From contig JAHQIW010004413.1 of assembly GCA_019055375.1 (NCBI GenBank), positions 27,561-91,560 of the forward strand: a stretch of DNA of 64,000 nt. Reading direction: 5' to 3'. The stretch is from Parelaphostrongylus tenuis (lineage: Eukaryota > Nematoda > Chromadorea > Rhabditida > Metastrongylidae). Made by a program: the position numbers and the translations under genes. Shown piece by piece: positions 1 to 55,699 of this stretch (positions are counted from its first letter, which is position 1; every line of letters begins with the position of its first letter). Below the pieces are notes generated by a model that saw only the letters and a program-made list of their open reading frames with translations, had not been told where the DNA came from and ran no database searches.

Positions 1-2343
1 TGTCGAAGGTCTTTCTCACTTCGATAAAGAAGGAAATGGACTGATCAACGTCGCAGAGCTACGTCATCTACTCACAACTTTAGGTATGTCATTATAGAGG
101 TTTTTTTAGTATGGAATGAGGTGTACGGTTTTTATTCAAGAGCTTCTAACTTTTGATATTACTTCAAACCTTATCATTATCAATCAAGCATCAGCTAAAT
201 GCAATGCTATGTTTTCAACGTTCTGTATTAATGGAAATCTCGTCTACGTAGCGCTAGGGTTTGGGATAGAGGATGAGGTATTTAAATTTGAGTCTGTATT
301 CCTTTTGTTATGTTGTGAAACACGATCGGCGTCAAACAGATTTATTTCAAATACGATTGGAAAAGAGAGAGCTGGATGAATGTCGTTGAGCATAGCAAAG
401 ACTGTTGTGAAAGAAGTGGCTGAAGTGATTTGAAATAGGCTTATGTATGAGTGGAAGATTAAGAAATTCGTCTGGTGAAGCGCTATCTCGCTACAGCCGG
501 TCTGATTCAGCAAATGAAAATGCTCTCAGCTGTATGTTTTTGATTGAAATTCATAACACAGGAAGGCTACCAACTCTATGTTTTGATCGGCGCTACGACC
601 AGCATCATATCTCTCTGCATTCTGTCTAATAGTAAACATAAGGCTGTCAGCGTTGATCAATACGTGAGGGATGCGCCAGGCATTCAGCTTCTTCGAGCAT
701 CTTCAGAGGTGAATGAATGGATATCTGACCTCCACAATGACTCACAGTGTCACACAAATGTGCCAAATCAGTGCTGCTGCTCTCTTGGGACAAATCTTGC
801 ACCAATTCGCCAACTTCGAGAACTAGAAAGCTGAGTGAGCCTTAGGCGCGGCTTTGAACCGGCGACTATGTGTGAATCGCAGAGCATCTTCAGCCACTGC
901 GCTTACGCGCTGTGTGATCCAGTGTTGTGGCGGATTGTACTTTGAATGTTTTCAGCGAATGGTTTTACACGATGAGTTGTTTGAAGAGGTAGTCGTTTAC
1001 TGGTAGCTGGATGAGGAAGACCATGGAGCACCGAAATATTTCATAACCAGTTTACTTCAGTGACCCATGGGCGTGCCCAACGATTCCACTTCCTCTGTCC
1101 CGATTAGCCACCGTCTACAGCTACTTTTCGTTGCAGAATCCTTAGCTGTTTTGGAATAAATTGCTAAGGCCTTGCTTTTCATGCCGCAGTACTGGCTTCA
1201 TGATTGATCAAAAAATGACCTCGCCATGTTTCAAACAATTTGGCTGTTGCTGATGTTGTATAAACGTAGATTTGATCGTCATTGAAGTCATATGAAATCC
1301 ATTTTACAATCTTTTCGTATCCTCAAAGCAATCTAAAATATTAGGCACTTCTATGAACAGTCGAACTACATTTTGCTATTTGTTGAGAACAGATAGTTGA
1401 GGAGGTTGAATTCTTGGCCTTAAGTTTAGCGACAGAATGTTTATAAATGGAAAGGTGTGTTGATTAATTCACAGTTTTTCACTAATAAGCCTAACACTAG
1501 GGTCGTGTTTGGCCAATCAAGTGAAAAGTTGTGAATTATTGACCAGTGCGGAGCTTAATAGATAGTCGATCTTGGAATTTATAATGAGTAGATTACAAAC
1601 GAATCGCTTTTTCACAATAGACAACGGAACAAAATCATCTCATAAGATTTTGTGAGCTTTTAATGAGGTCTGTTATAGCACTTAAAGTACAAGACACGTG
1701 TTCGGCCTTCCAGCCTAATCAATACTACGTTGCCTCTTTGATTAGTCAGTTTCTCGAGGATATACCCCTTATATGGGCCTTATATGTAGGAATCGACGAC
1801 GAATTCCTTACAATCGACGTACACTTAAAGGATCACCGTGACGTTCCTCCGGAGTGACTGATGTCGATTGCATGGCTTGCGGCTTTCACAAAGCATATGT
1901 AACAATACCAATCAATCGACTGTCCTTCCACCGTATGTCGAGCGTAAAAATTTCGTGGTCGGTTCCTCTGTGCAGATGATATATATATCGCCGAGGAACT
2001 TACTGACTGAACGAAAAAGCATCGTGTTACTAATGAGGTTGGAATGTCGAGACACGTCTCTAGCTTTTTTGAAGTGCCATAACAGACATGAAAGGTTGAA
2101 ACTATGTTATCAGATTGTACTGTTTTCGAATGAGGTCTTAAAATAGTCAATTGAGAGATGGAACGAAATTTTTTCATACTAGTCCTTATATTTGGAAGCT
2201 TCAAATTACTAAAGAGATCCTGTTCTTTTGTTCTAGGTGAGCGTTTGTCGGATGAAGAAGTTGACCAGCTTTTGGCCGGACACAACGATTCTCACGGGAA
2301 TGTGAACATTGCCGACTTTGTTCGTAATGTGATGAATTCTTGA
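1..2343 (+). CDS. mlc-3: Myosin essential light chain, C-terminal part (mlc-3-like)
   Basis: This is the 3' end of a muscle myosin essential light chain, an EF-hand protein that wraps the myosin lever arm. Two exons are visible: 1-83, which enters from outside the window, and 2237-2343, which ends at TGA. They are separated by a 2.15-kb intron with GTATGT and TTCTAG borders. The first exon reads VEGLSHFDKEGNGLI and then an AELRHLLTTLG helix, the third EF-hand. The second reads GERLSDEEVDQLLAG and ends in the GNVNIADFVRNVM helix of the fourth EF-hand, the usual end of essential light chains. The splice phase (G|GT) joins them without a break. The calcium loops lack some acidic ligands, as is normal in essential light chains. 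The large intron holds a SINE (628-925). The mlc-3 symbol is by resemblance to the nematode essential light chain; the N-terminal part is missing. Confidence 0.9.
628..925 (-). mobile_element. tRNA-derived SINE (family 1), copy in mlc-3 intron
   Basis: Read on the minus strand, the right end (about 840-925) is tRNA-like. It has an A-box-like AAGCGCAGTGGCTG, a B-box-like CCGGTTCAAAG, and GCGCG/CGCGC ends that can pair. The body, down to about 628, matches the body of the SINE at 13205-13512, including CAATGACTC, CAGTGCTGCT and GGGACAAATCT blocks and a GCGTTGATCAAT tail block. Identity is moderate, so this is an older copy. Ends are approximate. Confidence 0.65.
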
Positions 2344-2801: not shown

Positions 2802-5800
2802 ATGGGAGAAGGTGCTGCTATGGATGCGAGTCGGGATATCACGCATTTGAAGGCAATCATTGAGGAAGCCGGCATTGTCGACTATGACCCTCGTGTGGTA
2901 CATCTTCTTCTCGACGTGGGTTATCTTATTTTATCTATGGCTAAATGCCCTTTAATTAGTTTGGAGAGTGGGACTGCAAATTTTTCCATTCGACGATCAG
3001 TGCCTTAAAACGTTGGCAATAACGTTGAAATCCTTCGCGGCACGGGCTGCGATTATGACTTTGCAGTAGTTTTCTAATGAAATATGATTTTTTAAAGTTC
3101 CGTCATTAGTAAATGACTAAATTCAACGAGGGGGACGTTGATAAAACTATCTGTAGCTCTCTTCATTATTATTTGAGCCAGCATGTCATGTGGTGTGGTA
3201 ATGGGCTCTTGTACAGCTCGATACACGTGTTTCGATCTTACAGTCTTGTCAGTCTGGCAGAACCCGTCATCTTTCAACCTTTTTAGCCAATCCTCTCAGG
3301 AGCCCTCACTCTCCCTACAGAGAGGTATCTAAGGTCGAAATACTTGTATCGGGCTGTATAAAGCCCATTACCTCACCACATGACATGTTGGCTCAAATAA
3401 TAATGAAGAGATTTTTTGAATTTAAGCGTGAATTTAAGAAAGCACATGAAATAAAGCTGTTTGTAGCAGAAACAATGGTGATGCTTTCTCCTAGAACATC
3501 GCGGAAAAAGGCAGATACTCAATAAAACAAACTCTGCTTGAAACGTGGGCTTTTTTTTGTTAGCAGAAAGTAAAATGGAAGTTATTTCACAAATCAAACT
3601 TAGTGGTTAATAGGTATTTCCCAAGCTTTCAAATGACTACAAAAATATGAATAAAAAAGAAAGAAACGATGTTATATAACAGCTGGAAATATATTCCCTT
3701 TCACAACAATATGTTCTTGTTGAAACATAGATGACTTTTCGATACATGGGCTTTCTCTAAGCTATAAAATTTTTTGTAGCCTCTTCTGGTATATTTCTTC
3801 ATCTAATCACGGTAGTATCCCCGCAGTACCTTGAATTACCAAACGAATTCCCATATTTTTTACTGCAAGATGTGATAATAAAAACTCCCGCCGGCGCAGC
3901 CAGTCTAGGGAGAAGGATTAGAAGAAGGTCGATGAGGTTTTCCAGTTCTTGTCTATTATAGGGCAAGAAATGAAAAACCGATCTCATTCGCTGGGCAGGA
4001 ACTTTTCATTGGAGTGTTAGTAATCGTTCAAAATCCTAAACGCTGGCTATCGTTGTACGTGGCCTTTTTTTTTTCAAAAGGCCCTTTGATAACGCTGTAA
4101 AATTCCAAATGAAATTCCGTTTCACATCGGCTGCACAGTTGAATTGCTACTTCGCTGGAAGAACGTATGAACGTATAAAGAATGTCTTTCAGTATCAGTG
4201 TCATACGTTTGATCTGGAAATCCTTTTGAAGCGGAGATAAAATTTTAATCGAATGACAAAAATCGCACTTCTCCGAAGCACCCATCGATCGATCGTAGAC
4301 GGTCACCGCATGGAATCTGCAGTCATCAGACCCCTCGATCATGAATTAGCTTGTAAACAATCAAGCCGAATGTTTGAAACTCGATCTTACTTTTCCTGTT
4401 ACACTGCAGCGAGACGCTCTTTCCAGAAAATAAGCACGACATTTTAATCCTTAAGTTATACGCTTTCAAATGATTATTAACAGTTTGAAGAAAGAGCTCT
4501 GTCTCGTGAGAAAAATGCGTGTGGAAGCACATAGGTTGTCCCTCTGTAATAATGTAGAAAAAAGGCTTTTGGAAAAACGGCTACCTGGGGCTGTAGCCAG
4601 AGTATCAAGTTTTTGAATGAATACTGACACTCTTGAGGAAAGTTCCTCTTCAGCGAATGAGATCGCTATTTCATTTGTCACCATTAAAATGGACAAGTGC
4701 TGGTTTCTCTCTATATTCAGGCTTATAAAGTGATCTACAACTTTTCAGTTGCTCTACGCGACAACTTCTGGTTTGCTCATGAAGGCGAAAGCTATGTCGC
4801 AACATTGCGGGAAGATTGTGATCGATGAGACTGATGTACAAATGGCCGTGGATTTCTGTGGTGAGTAGCCGTGGATTCTTGGAACATCTCAGCAGAGTCC
4901 CTTTAGACCCCTTTTTTCTGCTATGTTTTTCACTGGCAGGCTATTCTTTTCTCACAGTCCACAATTAGAAAGACAGAGCAATATGCATTTGTTACCTAAA
5001 AACTTTGGTATCATAGCTTATCACGGAACGCTTTGCCTACGACACCTGATTTTTGGGTAGTGACGTAACGTCCAAAAGAGATGAACACTAATTTGTTTTT
5101 TTTTTGCCTTTAATGCTGGCTGCTTTGGTAGTTAAAATCGCAGAAAGAGTGGTAGCAAGGCGGCGATGTTGGTGGGATATTGGTAGCACGCACCCTCCGT
5201 ATAAGTGGAACGCTGGTTCAACTCCCGCCTTGGGTTGAATGTTTTGCATACCACTCAACATTTTTAGATGTTCGATGAAAGGTTGTGAGAACAGGAGATG
5301 GTAGTCTGCAAAATTTTCAGATGCCTGGTATGGTACTTTTTGGTTTGGTAGCACAGATTTTCAAACCTATCCTCCACGCAGGGCAAGAAGTTTTCATAAA
5401 TATTGTAAATAATCGTTCGAAAGCTTGAATCTCAAGCTAGCGTTTTACATGACCGGTTTTTTAAAAAGACTCCTTTATAACACAGAAGAATTCGATGTAA
5501 TATTATGTTTCACACGTGCATATTTCTCGCACTACAGCGCTTTTCTTTAGACTATTGGTAATCATTTGATAACGTAAGATTTACCGATTTCAACGCTGCG
5601 TTCAAATCCTGATAAGGCTGTTTCTCAGCTACGAGCTGGGAATATGAGATTGATTCACATGCACGAGCAAGTGTTCTTAAGCCAGTTCACGTGCGGTGGG
5701 GTGGGGAGCGTTGGGGTGTCGGCGCGAACATGGATCGATGGCATCTAAGAAAGGTGTATTTGATTCGGAGCTGTTTCTCCGCTTTCCAAATAATTTCGGA

Positions 5801-7690: not shown

Positions 7691-7785
7691 CAAATCTTTG
7701 CTATGATGAAATTTCCTTTGTATCAGTTGGGAATATCTTACTCTGATAATGATATAACATGTTCTAAGCCGCTCGTCAGGTCCAA

Positions 7786-7832
7786 GTCTAGACAGGCTCC
7801 TGTTTCGTTCCCAAGAACTCCTCAGTAGCATA
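7786..7832 (-). ncRNA. Hammerhead ribozyme, type I (subfamily 2)
   Basis: On the minus strand the core is CUGAGGA, stem II is GUUC-UUGG-GAAC (four perfect pairs), then GAAA, and stem III is CAGG-AG-CCUG closed by U16.1 with C17 at the cleavage site. Stem I is partly eroded (a base is missing from the UAGCAC side). All catalytic core bases are present; stem I is the weak point. Confidence 0.7.
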
Positions 7833-8017
7833 GTCCCTCGGTTCAGTCGATTCCTTGAGGCTATACTCCCTATGAAGGAATCTACGCCTAGTAATAAATC
7901 ACCGCAAGGCGGGTGATAGAATCTGCCGACATTGCAGAGACTAGCAGTTGAGTTTGCGGCTGTGAAAATAAATCATACCTTTCCACAGCCTCAACAGATC
8001 GACTAAAGCGAGGCACT

Positions 8018-8064
8018 GTGCTACTGAGAAGCCCATAAGGACGAAACAGGCGTCTTCCTAGCAC
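8018..8064 (+). ncRNA. Hammerhead ribozyme, decayed core (subfamily 2)
   Basis: Stem I is perfect (GUGCUA with UAGCAC) and GAAA is intact. The core reads CUGAGAA, so position 8 is A instead of the essential G, and stem III is damaged. It is probably inactive. Confidence 0.6.
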
Positions 8065-8459
8065 TTAGACCTGGCAAACAGCTCAAAACACGTTATGTTA
8101 CTATCAGAGTATTATCGTTTCGAGCGCGGTATATGAAAAGCGGTCAGTGGAGATCCATGTCTTACAGGAGAAAATCGCTCAATGGGATTTCGACATTTTC
8201 GTCAGTGGATGATGACAGCAGCATTCATCTTCCACTTTTTAAAAATCAGTGCGGCATACGTTGGATTAGATTTGAACTATAAAGCGCTTTTTGCTGACGG
8301 CTGCTCTCTAACAAGTGGAAGTTTTTCTAGAATACATCTCCATCACTATGGCACCTCACTTCAATAGCGAGAGACGTGTCTAGTGAAACAGAAATTTTCA
8401 CTAATTTTCAATATGCTCAAGAGAATTCTGTGAAATGAAAAGTGGAAAGTTCTCTTTTA

Positions 8460-15080: not shown

Positions 15081-15417
15081 ACAAGAACTGTGACAACGTT
15101 CTGAGCTGTTATTAGCTGCGCCGGCGGGAGTCTTTATTATCACACCTTACAATGGAAACATGGGAATTTGTTTGGTCACTTGATGCATTGAGGGGATAAT
15201 ATCGAGACTGATTGACAGAATATAGCAGAAAAAATTTCTTTGAAAAGTTTTGAAGTTAAGAGAAGATCTTGTGCAGCCCGATGCACGTGTTTCGTCCTTA
15301 CAGACTCGTCACTTGGGCAGATCCCGTCGTCTTTCGATCTTTTTATAGTCAGTTCTCTCGGGAGCCCAGCTCCCCTACAGAGGCTAGAGAGAGACTATGA
15401 AAAGATCGAAAGACGAC

Positions 15418-15480
15418 GGGTTCTGCCCGACTGACGAGTCTGTAAAGACGAAACACGTGTATCGGGCTGTACAAGAGCCC
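15418..15480 (+). ncRNA. Hammerhead ribozyme, type I, intact (subfamily 1)
   Basis: This is the best-preserved copy. Outer stem I GGGUUCU pairs with AGAGCCC (15474-15480), with an internal UGUACA loop, and inner stem I GCCCGA pairs with UCGGGC. The core is CUGACGA (15431-15437), stem II is GUCU-GUAA-AGAC, then GAAA (15450-15453). Stem III is the self-complementary CACGUG closed by A15.1-U16.1. Cleavage is expected after A15461. Every invariant core base is present, and the stem I loop opposite loop II fits the tertiary contact of natural, fast hammerheads. The minimal stem III suggests activity as a dimer. Confidence 0.9.
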
Positions 15481-15735
15481 TTACCAGACCACATGACAAG
15501 TGGCTCAAATAATAATGAAAGGATCTATTGAAATTTGAGCGTGTTCTGAAAAAGCACTCGAAATAAAGGTATAATATGATAAAAAATATCAACCAAAGAG
15601 CAATCGAGTGCGCAACACTCCGTGTTAGGTGAAAGTTTCACTTGACATAGAGTATAAAACGTTCGTCTTCGACAACTCTCTGTACGGAGAGCAGGCTCCC
15701 GAGAGAACTGACCAATAAAAAGATCGAAAGACGAC

Positions 15736-15798
15736 GGGTTCTGCCCGACTGACAAGCCTGTAAGGACGAAACACGTGTATCGGGCTGTACAAGAGCCC
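15736..15798 (+). ncRNA. Hammerhead ribozyme, G8 mutant (subfamily 1)
   Basis: All stems match 15418-15480, but the core reads CUGACAA (G8 to A), and stem II has one mismatch (GCCU with GGAC). Loss of G8, the general acid, should abolish cleavage. Confidence 0.75.
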
Positions 15799-15859
15799 TT
15801 ACCAGATCAGATGACATGTTATCTCAGGAATATTTACATTAGAAACTTTCACAACAAGG

Positions 15860-18189: not shown

Positions 18190-18380
18190 ATTCCTAAGAG
18201 AACTGAGTGGTGAGAAAAAACGTGGCCTCGGGCGGGGATCGCACCTGCGTTTCATCCTATACGGGGACGCGTGCTCTACCACTATACCACCGAGGCATAT
18301 TTGCCCAAACACTCAATCTTCAACATCTTTTTGTTAGCTATCAGCCACCAACCTACAGCAGGTGAGGTCGGGTATGCGAT
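18190..18380 (-). mobile_element. tRNA-like sequence within SINE (family 3)
   Basis: On the minus strand 18296-18225 folds as a near-complete cloverleaf. It has a 7-bp acceptor stem (GCCTCGG/CCGAGGC), a weak D arm (TATAGTGGTAGAGC), an anticodon stem CGTCC/GGATG with loop CCGTATA, a 4-nt variable region and a T arm with one mismatch. C33 in place of U33, the weak D stem and the TGCGATC T-loop argue against a working tRNA. The flanks share block order with the repeat at 5110-5290, so a tRNA-derived SINE is preferred. A diverged tRNA gene is the alternative. Confidence 0.55.
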
Positions 18381-18573
18381 TTTGCTCTATAGACCCAGTT
18401 GAGCTAATAGCCATAGCCATTTTTTGCTTACCACTGAATTCTCTTAGAAATATACATAGGACCTCGAAAATGGAAAAGAATTGATTGCACCAATCAATAT
18501 ACAGTAAAGTACTCCTGAGATAACCACTATGTGAACCACTTTTCCTTGTGATTTTACTAATACTGAAGTTTTC

Positions 18574-18797
18574 TGATAAGGGTATGACTTGTTTTGAGCC
18601 AATAGGTCTAGTGCTATAAAGGAGCCTATTTCGTTCTATTGGGACTCATCAGTAGCACTCTTCCTCGGTGGCGTCGATCCGAGACTAAATAATCCTCCAA
18701 AGGAATCGACGCCGAGTAAAAAATAATCAGCCGTAGTAGGATGATGGTATTACCTAATGCTGTGGTGATCGATAGTCCAGCTTGTGGCTTTTCTGTA
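18574..18797 (-). mobile_element. Solo hammerhead element, subfamily 2, with 8-bp TSD
   Basis: This is one minus-oriented unit, truncated at the far end and bordered by AAGTTTTC (18566-18573 and 18798-18805). Its interior is collinear with the 55.2-kb copies: GGAATCGACGCCGAGTAAAA, GTAGGATGATGGTATTACCT and a final GTGGTGATCGATAGTCCAGC. Confidence 0.65.
18611..18658 (-). ncRNA. Hammerhead ribozyme, type I (subfamily 2)
   Basis: On the minus strand stem I is GUGCUA with UAGCAC (perfect), the core is CUGAUGA, stem II GUCC with GAAC has one mismatch, GAAA is intact, and stem III (UAGG-CUCC-UUUA) is slightly eroded. The cleavage site precedes UAGCAC. Activity is possible but reduced. Confidence 0.75.
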
Positions 18798-19158
18798 AAG
18801 TTTTCCTATTTATTTTCATTGTATACTGCCTTTATCTTCTCAATTTTTGCCGTCTCTGCTAGCGCTCTTGCTCAATTCATTCATTTCCAGCTACGATCGT
18901 TACAGTAATTCAAATGCAAGACGGGTCAGATAAATGAATGTTTTGAGTCACTCCTTCTACTTACATTATCAACAAATCTGACGCACAACTGTATATAATA
19001 GTATTTTCAAATCTACTGGGTGCTGATGTCAAATTGAACCATTTCAATGGTTCATAATATATGGACACTGTACAAAACATCAGAACATCCCTTTATTTCG
19101 AGTGCTTCATTAAGACCACGCTCCATTATTTGAGCCAACTTGTCATGTGGTCTGGTAA

Positions 19159-19220
19159 GGGCTCTTGTACAGCCCGGTGCACATGTTTCGTCCTTACGGA
19201 CTCGTCAGCCGGGCAGACCC
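19159..19220 (-). ncRNA. Hammerhead ribozyme with compensatory stem I change
   Basis: The core is CUGACGA, stem II GUCC-GUAA-GGAC is perfect, and GAAA is present. Inner stem I is GCCCGG with CCGGGC, where the other copies have GCCCGA with UCGGGC, so both sides changed together. The cleavage triplet is altered (U16.1 to C), which should slow cleavage. Confidence 0.8.
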
Positions 19221-19477
19221 GTCGTCTGTCGATCTTTTTATAGTCAGTTCTCTCGGGAGCCTTACACTCCTTATAGAGAGTTATCGACGACGTACGCTTT
19301 ACACTCTATGTCAAGTGAAACATTCACTTAGCACAGAATGTTGTGCACTCGATTGCTCATTGGCTGGTACTTTTATCATAATTATACCTTTATCTCGAGT
19401 GCTCTGTTTAGACCACGCTCAAATTTCAATAGATCCTTTCATCATTATTTGAGCCAAGTTGTCATGTGGTCTGGTAA

Positions 19478-19541
19478 GGGCTCTTGTACAGCGCGATACA
19501 CGTGTTTTCGTCCTTAGAGACTCGTCAGTCGGGCAGAACCC
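19478..19541 (-). ncRNA. Hammerhead ribozyme, slightly damaged (subfamily 1)
   Basis: CUGACGA, stem II and the CACGUGUA stem III are present. There is an extra A after GAAA and one mismatch in inner stem I (GCCCGA with UCGCGC). Confidence 0.7.
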
Positions 19542-19933
19542 GTTGTCTTTCGATATTTTTACAGTCAGTTCTCTCGGGAGCTTTGCTCTCTTACAGGGAG
19601 TTATCGAAGACGAACGTTTTACACTCTATGTCAAGCGAAACTTTCACCTAACACAGAATGTTTGCGCACTCGATTGCTCTTTGGCTGGTATTTTTATCAT
19701 ATTATACCTTTATTTTGAGTGCTCTATCTAGACCACACTCAAATTTCATAAAATCCTTTCATTGATTAGCTGACGCTAGGTTGGTAAATTAGTCGTAGAA
19801 GTTCTACATATGCCCAGGCTCTGAAGAAAATCCTTTCACTATTATTTGAGCCAACTTGTGATGTCTTCTGGTAACTCTCTGTAAGGGAGCAGAGCTCCCG
19901 AGAGAACTGTCTATAAAAATATCGAAAGACAAA

Positions 19934-19995
19934 GGGTTCTGCCCGACTGACGAGTCTGTAAGGACGAAGCACGTGTATCGGGCTGTACAAGAGCC
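19934..19995 (+). ncRNA. Hammerhead ribozyme (subfamily 1)
   Basis: Stem I GCCCGA/UCGGGC and the outer GGGUUCU half-helix are intact. The core is CUGACGA, stem II GUCU-GUAA-GGAC has one wobble pair, and the GAA triad is present with 15.1 changed from A to G. Cleavage site UA before UCGGGC is retained. Confidence 0.75.
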
Positions 19996-20049
19996 TTACC
20001 AGACCATATATCAAGTTGACTCAAATAATAATGAAAGCATCAGAACATC

Positions 20050-22841: not shown

Positions 22842-24537
22842 TTAGTTTCTGCTGACGGTAGCAGTCGCTGAAAAGAAATGCCGCCCGAATGGACCCGATG
22901 CCAACATACGAATCGCTCTGTTCACTACACTTTGCCACATTGCGTTTGACCAACTCACCATGATAATATTTGTGGTCTGAGGAGAAATCCTTCGTCACAG
23001 AACAAAGATGTCTATATAGAGGACTGAAACACATACTGAGAGAGATCGCGAAATTGTCAATGGATCGGGCACAGGCGTTATTTTCGGACCATTGGGACGT
23101 GGCACTGGCCCTGGTGCACATGGCCTCTCTTGTACATCCATATTAGTGCAAATTGCCGTCACCGTGCTGTCGACGATGATGCAAGCACTTTTGCCCATGC
23201 CGACTGCAATAAACTCTGAGCTCTAGGAAGGCATATTCCTTTGACAAGATAAAAGAACTGAAACCAGTTACACCTGCTGTGTTTCTGCTCAAATCCTTCA
23301 AAATTCAAAGATAAAATACTCACGGTTATCACCATCCAATACACCAAAACGCACATTCGAGCACATCAATGGTGTGTAAATGACTGTCACAGTAAGTTGA
23401 CTCAAAATGATCGAAATGGCAGCATCAGGTAGTAGTGCACTACGAGCTTGGCTGTCTAGAACGTCAAAGACCTGAATAGCAATTTTTTTCGCTATTTCAC
23501 AGAGTTTACTTGGAAGTGTCTTCACTATGTTTGTGTGAAATTATTCAAAACGCATACACAATGAGAGGCTGACATATCGTTAAAGGATTGGAGTCCATTT
23601 CTCATACCTTTTCCTATATCGTGTAGAGGAAGAGAACACATGATTTTCCAAAGTTACGCCTTACTGTTTGCTTTACAAGGCGTTCCACGAATCCTATAGC
23701 TCCTGCCTCGCTAATTGTAATACCCGGGACTCGAGCCAAAACATTAGATGCTCTGGAGTAAGCCATAGCGACAGGCAAAGTGAAACCATTGACTGTGAAG
23801 TTCCTAGTGCTCCCTCGAACAGATTTTGATAGCTTTTTTGGTGAATAATTAACTAGGAAATCATTATAATCCATAAGGATATAACACGTGCTGAGCCGCT
23901 GTCGGCTCCAGTGCTATACAGGCGCCTGTTTCATTTTGTCGGGGCTCATCAGTAGCACCGTTCTCGGATTAGCCGATTCTTTGAGGCTAAATTATCCTCT
24001 GTGAAGTTTTCGACGCCGTTTACACCACAAATTAGATGGTGGAAATACCTGGCATTGTCGATTCCTTCATAAAGAATTATTTAGCCTCAAAGAATCGGAA
24101 TCAAGGACGATGCAACTGATGAGTTCCGGAAGGGCGAAACAGGCGCCCTGTGTAGTACTGGAGCTGACAACGGCTCAGAACATGTTATTTCCTTATCAGA
24201 TCACTACCGCTCTAAGCCGTGGCTATAAAAAAAAACGGTCGAATGAAGAAACAAATCATTATGTCAAAAAATTTACCCTCGCTTTTACCCAAATTCAATT
24301 ACTTCATCAAAACTCTGATCCCAACATCTTCAGAGCATTGGTTAGTAATGAACGTTTTCATTCTTATAAGGCTCGCACGCTCTCCTAACGAATTTTTCGC
24401 AGTGCCAAAACAATTTTCCATTTAGTACCTTGACCTGCTGGCATCACTCCACATCCAAGCACTATGGAGATTGTGGCCAACAGCGGAAAGATAAAGGAGT
24501 TGGCCGGAATTCCTGCCATATTTGAAAGAATTTCCAT
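22842..24537 (-). CDS. Secreted nematode-family protein, copy B (intact)
   Basis: This paralogue of copy A is on the opposite strand. Exons in coding order are 24537-24429, 23813-23665, 23471-23324, 23203-23037, 22976-22842 (TAA), giving 235 residues. Exon lengths 2-5 are identical to copy A. The N-terminus starts MEILSNMAGIPANSF followed by a hydrophobic stretch to LGCGVMPAGQ, a signal peptide. The same blocks follow: FTVNGFTLPVAMAY, VPGI, SQARSALLPDA, ACIIVDSTVTAIC, ITPVPDPLTISRS, TTNIIMVSWS and RMLASGPF. Length changes against A in exon 4 are whole codons, which suggests selection on the protein. Intron 1 contains a hammerhead element (23868-24252), and its acceptor has changed from CAG to GAG. 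The downstream poly(A) hexamer is lost. The family function is unknown to me. Confidence 0.72.
23911..23958 (-). ncRNA. Hammerhead ribozyme, stem II decayed (subfamily 2)
   Basis: Stem I GUGCUA/UAGCAC and the palindromic stem III (ACAGGC/GCCUGU) with A17 are perfect, and CUGAUGA and GAAA are present. Stem II (GCCC...AAAU) no longer pairs well. Confidence 0.65.
24109..24159 (+). ncRNA. Hammerhead ribozyme, decayed (subfamily 2)
   Basis: CUGAUGA and GAAA are intact, stem II GUUC/GGGC pairs through wobbles, and stem III CAGG/CCUG is kept. Position 17 is G, which is not cleavable, and stem I has mismatches. This arm is read in the sense opposite to gene B. Confidence 0.6.
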
Positions 24538-32869: not shown

Positions 32870-34150
32870 AAAGCATGTAATGATATCAAGTATGGGTATT
32901 TTTCTCATTACTTATTTTCGTTGTCATTCTGTTAATATTTTCTTGCCTATAATGGAGAATTCGTGTTTTGGGCGATGTAATAATAGCCGGGAAATAGTCA
33001 TATTGTCAACATATAATGCTTGTGCGTGATGACATCATAGGCAAATTGGGTGTCTCTCCTTCTTTAGTTTTCTTTTGGTGGATAGAGTTTTTTTCATGCT
33101 TGACTGTCTTCAGTCAATAAGTATTTTACCTATGCAGATATTGAACTCAAGTGTGAATTTTCTTGACCTCTATTCTGTGCAAAGTGTGTAGCACACCTGT
33201 TTACTCGTGTTTTCCTCTTGTTCAGAATAGCGACTGTTGCTAGTGAAGATGACAACAAGGTATACTCTGTTAGATAAACTGTTGATGGTAAGGGAGATCA
33301 AGAGAGTTAAGAAACAAAAAGGTAATAAGTCTATGAAAATAGTCCTTGATCCTCATAGCTAACTCCTCACCTATACTTCAAATGACTAGCTCAAAAAATT
33401 AAATTATGAACTTACAATTCTCCTGAATCACACGTTTTTTCTATCCAAACATATCCTTGCATGCAACGTAACTTTTTGCGATGAGCTTTTAGTCTTATAT
33501 TGAATTCCGAATATTAGATATATGCTAATGACATTTATTGTAAAACTCCTTACGAGATATCTGATTATATTCTGATAACTAATGCCAAACGCAAATTGGG
33601 CTCTCAATTTTTCGTTATACCACTGATCATCCTTCAGCTACAAAGCATCTACACGTAACCAAGTGGAGAAACAATTTACTGACTGGATTGAAGAAAAAAA
33701 TGCGTATTGACTCTTTTCCGACTCTTGCTTTCAGCTAGAGAGGAAGGCACACTTTTGTACAACTACCGCTCTATAGAGTGTTGTTTTATCGAACAGGCTG
33801 CTTATTACAACCCTGACCCTTACTGAGACGCATTGTTTCGGCACACGTGCGCGCTGCCTTTTGTGTCCTTTTATGCCAGACCGTGTCAACGGCAAGATTC
33901 TATAGACTTTCTTCGAAAACCCGCTGATTTTGCAACTGCATTTGTGTTGACTGTTATATTTAATTGGACTAGTGCAACATCTATTTGGATCTACCTATTT
34001 TACTACACTGGACGTAGAATGATTACCCACAGACTTCACTTCATTTACAGCAGTCTCAGAATCGCAAAACTCTAACAATGCCTCATTTGACTAAGTAATT
34101 CAAATTTAATTCGTTTCGAATGTTTGTTGAGATCACGGTCAAATTAAATA
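32870..34150. other. No recognised gene
   Basis: About 1.3 kb without a supported exon or repeat. The 80-codon frame at 33833-34075 is unsupported by splice sites or motif. Confidence 0.4.
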
Positions 34151-34159
34151 AGCCTGTTA

Positions 34160-34680
34160 ATTTTTTTGAGCCATATATATGGTTTGTTCTGGGGCGTATA
34201 CAGTGCAATACACGTGTTTGGCTTTCCAGACTCTCAATTGCACGTTACCTTACGGTCCAGTCAGTTGCGCGGGGAGATATCCCACGCTAAGAGAAACCAA
34301 CGCCGCACGATTTACACGCGCCAATGAGTGATATAATATAATAATATATGTACTATATGGGCAGTGATGCACACTCGATTGCTCATGACTGGTACTCGTG
34401 AAATATCATAGCATTCGTTTAGAATGTTTCTTGAGACCACACTTGAATTTCAATATGCCTCACAATTATTTTTGAGCCATGGATATGATATTTCACAATT
34501 AATAGCCAAGAACAATCGAGTGTACAATTCTGCCCGGTTACTGTTTTCTTCATTTGATCGCGCGTTCAAATCCTACGGAGTTGGTTTCTCTTAGCAGGAG
34601 ATATCTCCCGTGGAACTGACTGAACCGTAGGCACCGTGCAACTGGCGAGGTTGGAAAGAGGAAACACGTATACACCTGTA
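34160..34680. mobile_element. Decayed hammerhead-type element, subfamily 3, abutting an RTE end
   Basis: Two arms in opposite orientation start at TTTTTTGAGCCATATATATGG (minus sense) and TTTTTGAGCCATGGATATG. The blocks CAATCGAGTGTACAATTCTG and GGAGATATCTCCCGTGG resemble subfamily-1 blocks. The right arm still shows a degenerate ribozyme (ACTGGCGAGGTTGGAAAG then GAGGAAACACGTATACACC). Core bases are lost. It joins the RTE stop codon directly at 34681. Confidence 0.5.
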
Positions 34681-37262
34681 TCACCTGTCGTCCCGTTGAC
34701 CGTCGAGTGATTCGAGCGGGTACGAGCAACTCTTCCATTTTTCCCTGTCGTGTGCAAGAGTGGCCCATTGGGTCCTCCTCGCTCTAGGGATTCGCTGAGC
34801 ATCATATCTTTCTTCTATCGCTTTCGTGAAGAAATCGGACCACGGGCCGGTGGTCTTCGTTTAGAGCGCCTAACGCCCCGAGGAATCCATCCAGTCGGTA
34901 ATGGCTCTCGTCCATCGGTTGTCGTTGAAGAGCACCACTTGTCCGGCCCACCTCATTATCGATATCCTGGCGTGTAGAACGGCGCCTCTAATTTTCGATC
35001 GTTGACGTAGGTCGGAACTTCGGATCCTTTCTTTCATTTGCAAGATACGGGATACACCTTGCATCGACCTTTCGACTGCGCGTTCGATAACGCCAAGTGA
35101 TCTTTCATCCTGCTTACGTAGCGACCAGGTTTCTGCTGCATACGTTAGGGCAGGGATAATTGTCGAGTCGAAAAGGTGGGCACGGAGTCGGCTCAACTCT
35201 AGAGCTAGGTCGTTCATCATGTTGATTTCACGACCTAGATAGACGTAACTGCTTGAGAAAGCTGTTTTCAATACTATGCTGGGCATTCGGAGATTGTTGT
35301 TCCGTTGAGCGTGAATGGGGCATTCGAAACCCATCCGTTCCTCATGAACATCGTTTTCGTTAAATTTGGTCGAAGAGCAATCAATCCACAGGCGTTGTCG
35401 AAATCGGTCAACATTTCTTTCGCCTGGCTGATGCTTGGTGTTATGAGGCGATATCATCCATCAGCTAAGAGAAGATGGTTCATAGTCGACCATCAATTTT
35501 CACTCCCATGTCGTCCCATTCTGATGTTCGCGTGACGTTTTGTAGGGTGGCAGTTAAATTTTTGGCGAGATTGTATCGCCTTGTCGAACCCCTCTTCTTA
35601 GGTCAATAGTGATGTTGTTGTAGAATGGAGATAATTTGGTCGTGAAATCTTTATAAAGCTCACGAAGGATCATTATGTACCGAGTAGGGACGCCCTGGTT
35701 ATCCAGAGCCTCTATAACCGCTTCTGTTTCCACTGAATCAAAGGCTTTCTTCAGATCGATGAAAGTGAGACAGAGTGGTTGTTTGTGCTCTCGTGAAACA
35801 TCAGTGAGTCTTGTAATCGTGTGGATGTGGTCTATGGTACTAAATCCTTTTCGGAACCCTGCTTGTTCGAATGGCTGTCTTTCGTCCAGTGTTCTGTCAA
35901 TCCTGTTTGGGATGGCTCGAGTAAAGAGTTTATGAACAACAGACAGCAAGCAGATTGGGCGATAGTTGCCTATGTCGTGAAGGTCTCTTTTTGGACAATA
36001 ATACGTTCTTGCTGGTTTTCCATTGAATAGGGACCTTGCATTCTGACAGGTAGCGAGTGAAAAGCCGAGCCTGGTTTTGATGGGAAATGGCGACAGGTTC
36101 TTCATGTGTTCTAGTCTGATCCTGTCTGAGCCGGTGTTGTTCTGTTCTTCACCGACGATACAGCATGTCGGATTTAGGAAGGTAGGACCGGTGCAACGAC
36201 ATATTCGTCCTCTTTCAATTTACATTACGGTAAGAGGACATGGCTAGCAAAGAGATCCGAGTAGTATTGGTGGATGCTTTTCTCCATAGCCCTTCTCGAG
36301 GCTGTAATTGTCCCGTCAGGGTATCGTAGTGCAATCATCTTGGTTTTATAGTTGGCGAAGCCTCGCTAGGCTTTGCGAATGCTCTTCCCAGCTTTTGCAG
36401 TTTTTGCCATAACTACTGCTCTTCTCTCTTTGAGGTCTTCTTTTATCGCTTCCTGCAGCGTTTTCGCAAGTTCGGACAAAGGTTTCGGTTGCCCGTAGCT
36501 GGTGCGATTCCGCGTTGACGTATCAGCTCGAATGTCTGCGGAGGCATGCGTCTCTTCGTGACCTTAGGACTCTCGGCTTTCGTAGCGCTAACGCGAAGAT
36601 ATTCAACGAGTCGATCGTATTCTTCGTCGATGTTGTCGACAACGGTATCTTCCCAAGAGCCGACTAATGATTTGAATACATCCCAGTTTATGGTAGTTTA
36701 GGGACTTCGTTGTTTGAATTTAGCGGCTTTCTCTCCTCTCCTCGAAAAACGGAATGTGGGACGAAAGAGGTGATGGTCTGATCCTGTGTAGAACTTAGGA
36801 ACAACAGCGACACCGTTCAGGCAAAACCTTCGATTTACTAGGATGTGGTCTATTTCATTGTGGTGCTCTCCATTGGTAAACTCTCACGTCCATCGCTGAG
36901 AAAGAGGCTTTTGGAATTGCGAGTTACCATGGATGGTTTGGGTCGTCATGATAAACTTAGATAGCCTCTCACTCTGTTCATTCCATTCTAGTCCGTGGGT
37001 CCCTAGGTGACGTACTTTAGACGTTCTTCTAGGTCCAATTTTTGCGTTAAAATCTCCGACAATGACCTTGAAGAATGTATGATCTTCTCAGAAGAATTTT
37101 TGGAGGTCCATATAGAACGCTTCGACTTCGTCTTTGCCATAGCTTGATGTTGGTGCCTAAGCAACAAAGATGGTCAAAGCCGGCATAGAACCAGATCGTT
37201 TCAACCGCAATTGTCCGATACGTGTTGTGAGTCGTTCAAACGAATCGATGTTTATGGTCAAC
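34681..37262 (-). mobile_element. RTE-type non-LTR retrotransposon, degraded
   Basis: On the minus strand the element reads through an APE-type endonuclease and a reverse transcriptase. The endonuclease part (about 37262-36800) has APTSSYGKDEVEAFYMDL and then FKVIVGDFNAKIGPRRT, with a stop between. The RT has NYRPICLLSVVHKLFTRAI, QAGFRKGFSTIDHIHT, LTFIDLKKAFDSV and RGVRQGDTISPKI in a 183-codon frame (36105-35554). The catalytic FADD box has decayed to LMDD and sits among stops near 35465. A 195-codon frame (35457-34870) carries SYVYLGREINMMND and ALTYAAETWSLRK. The C-terminus (RWATLAHDREKWKS-like, near 34760) ends at 34681. Several stops and frameshifts make it inactive. No poly(A) tail is seen. 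Confidence 0.88.
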
Positions 37263-45189: not shown

Positions 45190-48100
45190 GTGAGATAGAT
45201 CAGTTAAAAATAGAAAAGTAAAAAATAGTAATTCTTGAGTATTTATATGCAATGCTTTATTCCTTTGCACTGCTTTATCCATTCTCTTTTCAAGTCATTT
45301 TTATACAATTATTTTAGCACTCTAGTGGGAAATCCGTTCTCACATGGTCCAGCAAACGACTGAAAGATCCCTCCAACTGAGAACACCTATTTGGCCGTTC
45401 ATTGTTCTGACATGGAAGTAGTTGTATCCGAAAGAGATACTGGTACGACGAATCCCTATCACAATTCAGATATAAATTAGATGCATCCATTCGTTGTATT
45501 TACATATAAATCCAAGTTAGACGAAACATCCAATATCTAAAGTTTCTTTGAAGTGATATCTGCATGCCGTAGCAAAGCTCGATCATAATGAAGTCATTTC
45601 TACAACCTAATGGAAATTTGAAAATGTCCTTCCAGCTTATGAAAATGTGAAGAGCTTTTAGCCGAATTTGCTATTTTCTAACGCCAAGAGCTATGTGGGT
45701 TTTATAATTTCAAAAAATCTCCTCTAGAAAGCTTTTACAATTTTTAGTGAAACCTTGGTGCATAAAAAAATTTCAATGACACTATAAGCATCCTTGGAAG
45801 GAGTGAGCAGACAAAGTACAGCTTTGTCTCCTTGCATACTGGTTTAGTATGTAAACACTCTTCTGAGACTCTCTCCACCTTATGAAAATTTGATTGGCTG
45901 CCAAGAGCGCACGTTCGCAACCCTGCTTTCACCTACTTTCGCGGTTAAGGTGTCAGTTCAAATGTGCCTGCAATCAAGTTAATCTAGATTTAGAGTGAAA
46001 GAAACTGTAGTAAACGCTCTCTTAATTCTGGTGCAGTATGCTTCGTTGAGTGCTTAACCTATAACTTTGCCTGTGTTCTTCATCAAAACCGCTTGCTGGA
46101 CTCTGGGGCCTTCAAGGACTACGATGAATGAGTACTTTTTGTCTCTGGTGCTTTACTCAGTGTCTTCAACAAAAATCACTTTAGACTCCAGTGACGAATA
46201 GAGTCACCTTCGGATGATCATTCGAATTATAAAAAAAACTCCTCACATTGGATACCTTCATGACGGAATGAAACCGCGCTGTATATTAGTTATACAACAC
46301 AGAAAAAAAAACCACGGGTCAATACAACAATGGAGAGGAGAGCGTGCTTTGTGTTTCATGTGATATTTTTCATGTCCAAAATGCTGCTATGCCATATTTA
46401 TATGCTTCATTTTTTGGGTTTTTATTTCATATTTTTTTCCAATAAATATCACTACTGAAAGCAGGAAAGTTGCTTTCCACAAATAACGACGGAACGAGGT
46501 TGAGTACCGAATTATATTTCACACCTCTTTAGAATCCGCTCAATTCATCACCATCGACAAAATCAAGAATTCGGGCCATTTTCTCATGAACGAGGAAGAA
46601 AACTATTCAATTCTCAAACTATTCTTTTAGTTCCTCTTATTAAATGAGCTTGAAATTTTTAATTTCTTCTTATCAAATGGCTGACTCCGAGAATTCCTGC
46701 GTATATCGTTCCTAGTTCAAACGAATCCAACCCTTAGGTCGGGCATTATTCGTGATTGTAGTGGCTCACTTTGTGTGTCCGTTATTAGCCGCTCCATTCA
46801 AATATAGCCCATTTGAGGTTGGTGACCCATGACACCTTTGATGATGACTTGTCGACTGCTAGTCGTTCTATCGGGAACATTGACTGTTTGACCATTGCGT
46901 CCACTTCTAAACTTGAGTATATTCTCCAACGGCGATTGATTTGGTTGTGATGTACGAGAAAGTGTGGGCCAAAATAAGACATAGCAGGAACATAATTAGC
47001 GAGCGGACTAGAAGTTCACATGGTCAAACCTCCGGAATCGATCGACCTCAGCCAGGACCACACTTTCTCGTACATCACAACCAAATCAATCGCCGTTGGA
47101 GGAATATACTCAAATTTAGAAGTGGACGCAATGGTCAAGCAGTTAATGTTCCCGATAGAACGGCTAGCAGTCGACAAGTCATCATCAAAGGTGTCATGGG
47201 TCAACAACCTCAAATGGACGATATTCGAGTGGAGCGGCTAATAACGGACACACAAAGTGAGTCACTACAATCACGAATAATGCCCGACCTAAGGGGTGGA
47301 TTCGTTAAACTGGGAACGATATACGCAGGAATTCTCGGAGTCAGCCATTTGATAAGAAGAAATCAAAAAATTTCAAGCTCATTCAATAAGAGGAACTAAA
47401 AGAATAGTTTAAGAATTTAATAGTTTTCTTCCTCGTTCATGAGAAAAGGGCCGAATTTTTGATTTTGTCGATGGTGATAAATTGAGCGGATTCCAAAGAG
47501 GTGTGAAATATAATTCGGTATTCAACCTTGTTCCGTCGTTATTTGCAAAAGCAGCTTCCCTGCTTTCAATAGTGATATTTATTAAAAAAAAATCATGAAA
47601 TAAAAACCCGAAAAAATAAAGCATATAAATATGGCATAGCAGCATTTTGGACATGAAAAATATTATATGAAACACAAAGCACGCTCTCCTCTTTATTGTT
47701 GTATTGACCCGTGGTTTTTTTTTTCTGTGTTTATAACTAATATACAGCGCGGTTTCATTCCGTCATGAAGGTATCCAATGTGAGAGTTTTTTTTTTATAA
47801 TTCGAATGATCATCCGAAGGTGACTCTATTCGTCACTGGAGTCGTAAAGGTGGATTTCTTGTTGAAGACACTGAGTAAAGCACCTGAGACAAAAAGTACT
47901 CATTCATCGTAGTCCTTGAAGGCCCACAGTCCAGCAAGCGGTTTTGATGAAGAACACAGGCAAGGTTGTAGGTTAAGCACTCAACGAAGCATACTGCACC
48001 AGAATTAAGAGAGCGTTTTACTACAGTTTCTTTCCCTCTAAATCTAGATTAACTTGATTGCTGGCACATTTGGACTGACACCTTAACCGCGAAAGTAGGT

Positions 48101-52165: not shown

Positions 52166-52218
52166 AACATTTCAAATAATGATATGACATGTTTTGAGCC
52201 GTTTGTGAGGTATGATAA

Positions 52219-52265
52219 GTGTTAGACAGGAGCCTGTTTCGTCCCTCAGGATTCATCAGTGGCAC
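52219..52265 (-). ncRNA. Hammerhead ribozyme (subfamily 2)
   Basis: The core is CUGAUGA, stem II AUCC/GGAC retains three pairs, and GAAA is intact. Stem III CAGG-CU-CCUG is closed by U16.1, with C17 at the cleavage site before UAACAC. Stem I has one or two mismatches. Confidence 0.65.
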
Positions 52266-52614
52266 AATTGCCTTCGGTTTAGCCAATCCACTAAGATTAC
52301 AGTCCTCTACAACGGATTCGACGCCAAACAATAAATCACCGCAGCTCAGGTGAGATATTATTATATGTATATCATTATCACTATATCATTTGTATCATTT
52401 TTAAGGCGTTATCAGACTATCATGAATCTTAAGCGAGGTCTATAAAAGAGCTTCGAATGAAGAGGTATGATTCATTTTAGCAGTCACAAGCTCAACTGCT
52501 GGTCTTTGTAATGCCGTGGGACACTGTCGTCTGACTTGCGGCGATTTATTAATCGGCATCGATTTCTTTATGGAGGACTATAGCGTCAAGGAATCGGCCG
52601 AAGCGAAGGAAACT

Positions 52615-52661
52615 GTACTACTGACGAGTCCTGGAGGACGAAACAGGCACCTGTTTAGCAC
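52615..52661 (+). ncRNA. Hammerhead ribozyme (subfamily 2)
   Basis: The core is CUGACGA (52621-52627), stem II GUCC-UGGA-GGAC is perfect, GAAA is intact, stem III CAGG-CA-CCUG is closed by U16.1, and U17 precedes UAGCAC. One A-C mismatch lies in stem I (GUACUA). Likely active. Confidence 0.8.
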
Positions 52662-53289
52662 TCATCAGACCTCACAAACGGCTCAAAATATGTTATATCA
52701 TTATTGACTGTTTTCGAGCGATGTCTATAGAAAAGCGGTCGAATGAAGAAATTTACTTTGAATTATGTAAATATTTCAAACAGCTCCTCAGAACTAAGGC
52801 TAAAAATTAATTAATTTTCATTGCACTTATCACGGAAAACGGTTAGAAATTGCCAAAGCAAAGGCCACTGATAGTAATTCTGATGTTCGTTCCAGCAAAT
52901 ATAGCCGTTTTTAAAAACGATGGCCTAAATTTTTAAGAAGAGTTAATAATTCTACTCAAAGTTCAAGCATGGACTTTAATTTTTTGCAGGTGCTCCAAAA
53001 CGGTCTTTTCATCCTAATAGTACATCCAAGCCCTGGTAAAGTGAAATTGTCGAAATGTCAGTCATCGCTTTTAAGGCAACTGCAGGCACTTAAGGCATCT
53101 TCAAGCGAGTTTTCAAAAGGAACAATAGTGAGACGTTGGAATTCTTCATACACAACCTCTTTAACTATGCTGTGGTATGAAGTCACAAAAATGAATCCAT
53201 CAATATTAACGGCGAAGCAGAATTTTTAAACCCGGATGGGCGAGCCGTCAGTTACCGTTCAGTAGCGCGTGCTAATCAACTGCACTACT

Positions 53290-55080: not shown

Positions 55081-55316
55081 GCACAAGACAAGCTTTTTTT
55101 TGGAGGGTCCAAGTGGCGCTTGGCTAACGCAAGAGCGGGTTTGTAAAAAAGCAGTCGATAGCAGAAGTATAGTTCATTTTAAAAGCCGTAAGCTCGACTG
55201 CCGGTCACCACAAAGTCAGGTAATAACATCATCCTACTTTGGGTGCTTAATTTTACTCGGCGTCGGTTCCTTTGGAGGATTGTTTCACCTCAAGGAATCG
55301 GCGGAACCGAGGGAGG

Positions 55317-55364
55317 GTGCTACTGATGAGTCCCAATAGGACGAAATAGGCGCCTATATAGCAC
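55317..55364 (+). ncRNA. Hammerhead ribozyme, type I, intact (subfamily 2)
   Basis: Stem I is GUGCUA with UAGCAC (perfect), the core is CUGAUGA (55323-55329), stem II GUCC-CAAUA-GGAC is perfect, and GAAA lies at 55343-55346. Stem III UAGG-CG-CCUA is closed by A15.1-U16.1, and A55358 is position 17 at the cleavage site. All invariant bases are present. Stem III is self-complementary. Confidence 0.9.
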
Positions 55365-55598
55365 TAGACCTATGGCTCAAAATATGTCATATCCTTATCA
55401 GATTAAATCATTTTGAGCGGGTCTGTAAAAAAGCAGTCGATAGCAGAAGTATAGTTCATTTTAAAAGCCGTAAGCTCGACTGCCGGTCACCACAAAGTCA
55501 GGTAATAACATCATCCTACTTTGAGTGCTTAATTTTACTCGGCATCGGTTCCTTTAGAGGATTATTTCACCTCAAGGGATCGACGGAACCGAGGGAGG

Positions 55599-55646
55599 GT
55601 GCTACTGATGAGTCCCAATAGAACGAAAGAGGCGCCTATATAGCAC
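55599..55646 (+). ncRNA. Hammerhead ribozyme, mildly mutated (subfamily 2)
   Basis: This is the second monomer's ribozyme. Core and stem I are identical to 55317-55364; stem II has one mismatch (GUCC/GAAC) and stem III one (GAGG with CCUA). Confidence 0.8.
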
Positions 55647-55699
55647 TAGACCTATGGCTCAAAATATTTCATATCCTTAACGCAAGAGTACCAAAATGA

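Follow-up and report, generated by a model that had tools for sequence, protein, structure and literature searches.

What moves a retrozyme that encodes no protein of its own? A 542-bp direct dimer of ribozyme-bearing monomers raises this question in the window, by which we mean the whole 64-kb stretch of DNA that was analysed. For animal retrozymes, the enzyme has so far been argued from hammerheads in common, tandem copies and co-occurrence with Penelope-like elements (PLEs) (PMC7229834; PMC11722881). Cervera and de la Pena (2020) named PLEs as strong candidates, since they occur alongside retrozymes and, like them, have type I hammerheads and tandem copies (PMC7229834). The anatomy of the insertions described here points to PLEs as the mobilising machinery of retrozymes and would answer who moves them. 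We consider it probable, judging from sequence, that the dimer is a non-autonomous retrozyme that arose when a PLE protein, using a cut target strand as the primer, copied a 282-nt RNA, likely a circle, into cDNA over nearly two rounds. Since the genome contains hundreds of near-identical retrozyme units as well as PLE copies with open frames, both halves of this proposal can be tested together.

The original prediction described the element as two 282-bp head-to-tail monomers that encode no protein, each with one type I hammerhead which is intact in the first monomer, and with a perfect duplication at both ends. The head-to-tail orientation and the repeat spacing of 282 bp stand, but the second monomer (55418-55677) measures 260 bp, 22 bp less than a full unit such as monomer 1 (55136-55417). 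The two differ by 10 mismatches over 260 aligned positions. The duplication is indeed exact on both sides (Table 1), and the only two exact matches of TAACGCAAGAG in the window are those that flank the element. The junctions are uncertain by 2-3 nt, because GAG and TA can be assigned either to the element or to the duplication. Between the duplications lies the monomer repeat alone, without LTR, and its 3' end is found at +37 past the predicted cut. The absence of a protein was also borne out: the longest stop-free stretch is 93 aa, and none of the open reading frames of the window with at least 150 aa overlaps the element. It contains no RT or GIY-YIG ORF and is therefore not itself a PLE. 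The G+C content of the 282-bp monomer is 43.6%.

Both monomers match the Rfam Hammerhead_1 model, below the gathering score, with E-values of 0.0034 for monomer 1 and 0.063 for monomer 2 in a search of the whole window. As anticipated, the predicted ribozyme of monomer 1 has an unbroken core and unbroken stems, whereas that of monomer 2 is mismatched in two stems (C-A in stem II, G-A in stem III). Over the nine copies of this family's hammerhead in the window, the core is intact in eight, and stems II and III show compensatory changes, with 107 of 126 cells paired. The consensus ribozyme is moreover kept in 54 of 62 genomic units. Extra conservation of the hammerhead in young units was looked for and not found (13 changes in 48 nt compared to 47 in the remaining 234). 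A single-strand fold of the 282-nt monomer is better than that of shuffled sequences (z -2.73); the fold of the 96-nt ribozyme stretch is no better than shuffles (z -0.26). The combination of dimer, duplication and ribozyme is no chance assembly, since all three recur across the genome.

Table 1. Coordinates of retrozyme-related features in the window
Feature	Position	Strand	Remarks
Retrozyme family A insertion, direct dimer (282 + 260 bp)	55136..55677	+	repeat spacing 282
Target-site duplication, left copy TAACGCAAGAG (11 bp)	55125..55135		exact match
Target-site duplication, right copy TAACGCAAGAG (11 bp)	55678..55688		exact match
Type I hammerhead, monomer 1, predicted cut after 55358	55317..55364	+	Rfam RF00163 29.5 bits, below gathering score of 34; core and stems intact
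Type I hammerhead, monomer 2, predicted cut after 55640	55599..55646	+	RF00163 25.6 bits, below gathering score of 34; stems II and III weakened
Family A fragment, 5' truncated, short-end class	18574..18797	-	blastn 83% to 282-mer; end by alignment
Flanking repeat AAGTTTTC of the fragment at 18574..18797	18566-18573, 18798-18805
Diverged family A head-to-head pair, minus arm followed by tailed plus arm	52177..52772	.
Flanking repeat ATTTCAAA of the pair at 52177..52772	52169-52176, 52773-52780
Diverged family A head-to-head pair	7742..8159	.	flanks share just TCTTAC (6 bp, not significant)
Diverged family A head-to-head pair	23868..24252	.
Flanking repeat AAATCATTAT (10 bp) of the pair at 23868..24252	23858-23867, 24253-24262
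Family B (~320 bp) insertion, minus-strand tandem copies and inverted plus arm	19090..20037	.
Flanking repeat CATCAGAACATC (12 bp) of the insertion at 19090..20037	19078-19089, 20038-20049
Family B head-to-head copy	15267..15826	.	hammerhead 15425-15467, 31.0 bits, below gathering score
Family B head-to-head copy, ends +66 and +107	3158..3461	.	flanks share just TGTAGC (6 bp)
Family B relic	34114..34455	-	weak blastn match
Paralogous uninterrupted target of L045, beside RTE-type RT, one GTTTTCGTTA near 35353	35283..35470		aligned to joined L045 flanks

Self-comparison of the 64-kb window revealed nine loci that belong to two retrozyme-like families, termed A (282 bp) and B (~320 bp), and several of them are head-to-head inverted pairs (Table 1). 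We then searched the genome (481.5 Mb, 5105 contigs) with the family A 282-mer. This yielded 1458 candidates, of which 40 places were scored. From the places listed, 39 clusters were fetched, which together with the window element make up a sample of 40 elements. The left boundary of one of them (L017) was corrected by hand as a spurious 71% match had been included, and another (L035), which resembles more than one insertion, is counted by the script as direct-only. L039 and L047 are the same element with near-identical flanks on two contigs, representing either a duplicated region or separated alleles. Family A is abundant and young. Many units among the matches listed are 98-99% identical, and a 27-mer of the monomer occurs 401 times exactly and 58 times as a one-base variant, which amounts to 459 occurrences in the assembly. 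Such identity fits recent activity, in agreement with the earlier suggestion that the family may still be active. Twenty-eight of the 40 elements are head-to-head, and 12 are plain direct tandems.

A target duplication with a score of at least 7 flanks 31 of the 40 elements but only 6 of 493 controls, a random sample of combinations in which the left flank of one element was set beside the right flank of another. Its length is 12 bp in 15 elements, 11 bp in five, 13 bp in five, 14 bp in four, and 10 and 9 bp in one element each; a clear duplication is absent in nine of the 40. Further copies with target-site duplications, for which the original prediction had proposed a genome-wide search, thus exist with a mode of 12 bp. 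Together with type I hammerheads and tandem monomers across the genome, they support the predicted layout of a metazoan retrozyme. That the window feature arose instead by local tandem duplication, an objection which the prediction itself had raised, or is a satellite, its flanking 11-bp repeat being there by chance, would suit the two adjoining direct copies and the longer arrays that exist but is hardly credible, because family A inserts: besides the duplications in 31 of 40 elements, L045, another family A element, sits in a repeat whose uninterrupted paralogue in the window carries the target GTTTTCGTTA once.

The ends of the family A insertions are not arbitrary. Counting downstream of the predicted cut, 31 of the 68 outward 3' ends of the 40 elements lie at +30..60 (median +40) and 34 at +82..115 (median +91). 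Two places ~51 nt apart, delimited by class windows that were set after the data had been seen, therefore account for 65 of 68 ends, and the other three are found at -1, 1 and 260. Moreover, the two classes tend to be paired. In 22 of the 28 head-to-head elements one end belongs to each class, in two both ends are short, in one both are long and in three one end is outside the classes. Among the elements in which both ends are classified this corresponds to 22 of 25 (p ~8e-5 compared to random pairing); counting L039 and L047 as one element gives one-of-each in 21 of 27 head-to-head elements. The 5' or inner ends behave differently. They are scattered over the monomer, with 5 of 65 near the predicted cut (3.5 expected; L035 and L042 are left out), so that clustering at the ribozyme cut, as expected of linear cut RNA, was not found. 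The inner ends of paired arms are also unrelated to each other, as in 3 of 26 elements they lie within 15 nt (2.9 expected; L047, whose flanks are shared with L039, is additionally left out). Since the 3' ends are fixed and the 5' ends scattered, synthesis seems to have fixed starts and arbitrary stops, twice per head-to-head insertion. A small non-coding retrozyme in this way suggests a mode of Penelope insertion with fixed starts, random stops and two target strands.

Two kinds of unusual ends were of note. L014 and L031 each have one outer arm end not more than 1 nt from the predicted ribozyme cut, which suggests that priming now and then takes place at the 3' end of cut RNA. In L042, the left arm finishes (880-1013) in overlapping 25-30-nt repeats of monomer positions ~19-50, as if synthesis had restarted repeatedly at the near start site.

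The ends of family B, which is older (~90% identity), behave like those of family A, if less cleanly. Sixteen of the 18 sampled elements are head-to-head. In nine of these 16 the ends lie near +60 and near +110, in two both ends are at the near place and in five an end is outside, two of these five (L112, L121) being cut short by the fetched stretch. A duplication with a score of at least 7 was found in 8 of 18 elements, a figure that stands without control; it is doubtful in L109, whose 14-bp duplication matches poorly and at large offsets and whose uncorrected ends are used in the tally. In the window, the arms of the insertion at 19090..20037 end at +60 and, by alignment, at +108 after the predicted ribozyme cut; owing to a 20-nt gap the second corresponds to +88 in its own letters. 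For the copy at 15267..15826 a search for a duplication found none, and its ends fit neither class.

Are there resident elements that insert in the same way? Searching the genome with the GIY-YIG profile (PF01541) identified 1723 candidates. Among the 150 that were scored many have inverted neighbours, and their open frames reach 902 aa. One of the PLEs, L068, contains an 892-aa ORF with RVT_1 and GIY-YIG domains. Its arms are 100% complementary, the 12-bp repeat AGAGAGTATTGA is present at both ends, and a pattern search finds a minimal hammerhead core in its pLTR. Thus, a PLE reverse transcriptase with an accompanying ribozyme, which the original prediction had proposed to look for, is found in the same genome. 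The best named relatives of the PLE protein are from Necator, Ancylostoma and Haemonchus; like those of an RTE-like reverse transcriptase in the window (see below), they make a strongylid nematode the likely host. Several PLE-like matches have open frames of ~890-900 aa and near-identical pLTR starts, and some starts (C2880, C2909, C1932) recur at a spacing of 2985 bp, as in direct tandems.

We fetched 19 PLE pairs, which were picked as being inverted, the position of their ends not being a criterion. All 17 classified pairs have one arm that ends at ~+59 and another that ends at ~+106 after their own predicted hammerhead cut. Duplications are present in 16 of the 17 pairs, with lengths of 12 bp (nine pairs), 13 bp (three), 8 bp (two), 10 bp (one) and 14 bp (one). 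This count omits L097/L098, where the right stretch enters another copy, L101/L102, which belong to another subfamily and are unalignable, and the unpaired L107. A search with L068:2960-3200 returned read-through copies, 39 of 40 covering the whole query and one covering 1-237, and was uninformative on the ends. PLE mobilisation of the retrozymes is likely, because their end pattern and ~12-bp duplications match those of the resident PLEs. The case for it is one of geometry: in both kinds of element the ends lie ~50 nt apart, are usually paired one-of-each in head-to-head insertions and are flanked by duplications of usually 12 bp.

The sequences of the ends, in turn, appear alike at best weakly. 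In family A and the PLEs the spacing between cut and ends is not the same, the difference being 15-19 nt, and blastn of retrozymes A and B against the PLEs finds no homology (the best match has 11 nt and an E-value of 0.74). The idea that similar sequences would demonstrate a common recognition was not borne out, as the identity of the end regions in a fixed register does not exceed that of shuffles, being reached by 1353 of 3000 for PLE-B, 751 of 3000 for PLE-A and 482 of 3000 for A-B. The motif score of the end regions was reached by 12 of 3000 shuffles for PLE-A, which is notable, by 418 of 3000 for PLE-B and by 311 of 3000 for A-B. Finally, the 7-mer GCTCAAA, a motif picked post hoc, is found upstream of the near end in A, B and the PLEs (27 of 20000 shuffles). 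In one instance the two kinds of element are found together: the joined flanks of the retrozyme L028 match PLE coding stretches that are unbroken in several loci (~63-67% identity), and L028 seems to have landed within a copy of a PLE.

Resident LINEs, for example the RTE elements, might also move a retrozyme, through ordinary target-primed reverse transcription in which the 5' part is occasionally inverted (twin priming). LINE insertions also show duplications and 5' truncation, and an RTE-like reverse transcriptase (RVT_1) is encoded in the window at 35554-36219; among its 727 related proteins the best listed are from strongylids and the best named from Ancylostoma and Angiostrongylus. However, a LINE has one 3' end, whereas family A has two end classes, at which both inverted arms end and which are combined one-of-each in 22 of 28 head-to-head elements. 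The same combination is common to the GIY-YIG PLEs (17 of 17 classified pairs) and has been described for PLEs elsewhere. We therefore regard movement by a LINE as very unlikely.

If PLEs move the retrozymes, the process may be envisaged as follows. Transcripts of the repeats would cut themselves and subsequently close into circles. A PLE protein complex would introduce a staggered cut of ~12 bp into the target, and both exposed 3' ends would act as primers for copying the RNA, one of them using the near start site and the other the far one, while the enzyme travels round the circle for a random distance. Where the two cDNAs meet mid-insert the head-to-head form would result. A direct tandem like the one at 55136-55677 would be produced by extension of one strand alone or by a different resolution of the other.

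The head-to-head form might, on the other hand, not involve two target strands at all, but arise when one cDNA, or an antisense template, folds back and primes its own copying. Arkhipova and colleagues favour this explanation for PLEs whose inverted junction has palindromes (PMC3846280), and the two arms of one family A element are more alike than arms across elements. Fold-back predicts, however, that the arms are joined at a near-equal coordinate, which is found no more often than expected (3 of 26 elements within 15 nt compared to 2.9), and it is further at odds with outer ends that lie ~50 nt apart and with L010, whose arms carry different variants. Fold-back is thus an improbable source of the family A pairs, though not quite a negligible one.

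Priming of both strands at the target, as proposed above, raises the question of which RNA is copied. Among 65 family A arms, 63 are at least 110 nt long, 48 are at least as long as one full unit, and the longest has 3877 nt (~13.7 units). From the start sites a self-cut RNA gives just ~40 or 91 nt; for nearly all arms the template therefore seems to be longer than a cut monomer. In L021 the variant of the 27-mer is present in 17 of 17 sites, on both arms (13 + 4). It is not private to this element, as 41 of 442 exact units elsewhere carry it, but it is never seen more than three times at one place. Divergence between the arms of one element (1.38%) is moreover lower than divergence between elements (2.01%), a difference reached by 0 of 5000 permutations (25 elements; L035, L047, L014, L028 and the window element are left out). 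Not every element comes from one circle, because the arms of L010 differ by fixed variants and because the tandem units within a single arm of L017, L022 and L046 show 4-5 differences. Circles are likely the usual template, though neither proven nor the sole one.

Uncut multimeric transcripts of tandem arrays could serve as templates instead of circles. The 4-5 differences between units in arms of L017, L022 and L046 look as if array monomers had been copied serially, and an Anolis PLE used uncut RNA in vitro (PMC11167929). The L021 variant speaks against such transcripts, since it occupies 17 of 17 sites in L021 but elsewhere in the assembly never reaches more than three units at one place. 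So does the fact that many arms exceed one unit while 54 of 62 units keep a predicted ribozyme, which is expected to cut long transcripts. On balance, we consider uncut multimers unlikely as the general template, although they retain a reasonable chance.

Staying with circular templates, a more specific scheme is that a single PLE complex acts on a single RNA circle with two start sites ~50 nt apart, each of which is extended from one of the cut strands, so that the circle is rolled out both ways. We put this forward tentatively, rating it at somewhat less than an even chance. If true, it would cover the short and the tailed ends, the head-to-head form and the rare variants common to both arms, and it would apply to retrozymes and to the Penelope elements themselves.

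How does this compare to known systems? The purified protein of the Anolis PLE (PAc) cuts and extends both target strands, and it starts internally at two adjacent sites, which accounts for the tail (PMC11167929). According to the same study uncut RNA is the dominant substrate, ribozyme mutants are without effect on insertion in vitro, the Anolis ribozyme does not cut without the protein, and start sites are equal between the strands (PMC11167929). Unlike in Anolis, the genomic copies analysed here seem to use a different site for each strand. In the rotifer Adineta vaga, the pLTRs of PLEs stand head-to-head and one of them may carry a tail, an arrangement for which self-priming was the preferred explanation (PMC3846280). 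Retrozymes thus resemble GIY-YIG PLEs with minimal hammerheads in their head-to-head inserts, the tail on one arm and the short duplications (PMC11167929, PMC3846280). They also resemble them in having ends at two adjacent places, which in the PLE are starts of reverse transcription, with the hammerhead upstream of the ends. The tail is ~47-51 nt long here, compared to 31 nt in the rotifer and to 30-40 nt as given in PMC11167929. Unlike PLEs, the retrozymes lack RT and endonuclease, have a canonical hammerhead with stem III and share no blastn homology with them.

With the metazoan non-LTR retrozymes described in PMC7229834 the element shares one type I hammerhead per monomer, a monomer size within 170-400 nt, tandem dimers to multimers, a G+C content below 45%, duplications of more than 4 bp and the absence of an LTR. 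The groups named there are cnidarians, molluscs, rotifers, platyhelminths, annelids, crustaceans, insects and amphibians; the strings "nematod-" and "inverted" are absent from the main text of that paper. Unlike the retrozymes it describes, 28 of 40 elements here are head-to-head and the ends lie at two places. Plant LTR retrozymes are likewise non-autonomous ribozyme repeats with a proposed movement through RNA circles, but they differ in having 600-800-nt circles, LTRs, 4-bp duplications and a type III hammerhead (PMC7229834). The newt (~330 bp) and schistosome satellites are similar in being tandem repeats with type I hammerheads (PMC7229834). According to PMC8490949, one schistosome W element may have a duplication, whereas the end anatomy used here is absent from the text of that paper that was examined.

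Searches of the literature for retrozyme and nematode matched a human ribozyme study, and those for hammerhead ribozyme and Angiostrongylus a schistosome study; our literature searches turned up no description of PLE-type ends in retrozyme insertions. The novelty is anatomical and consists of the two end places and the one-of-each head-to-head pairing in retrozymes.

Finally, two other features of the window deserve mention. Positions 18224-18296 of the minus strand contain a mismatched tRNA-like match (37.1 bits). On the plus strand, a 160-aa stretch at 46917-47399 weakly matches a Monjiviricetes fusion glycoprotein profile, with a score under the curated cut-off, and is perhaps a viral relic.
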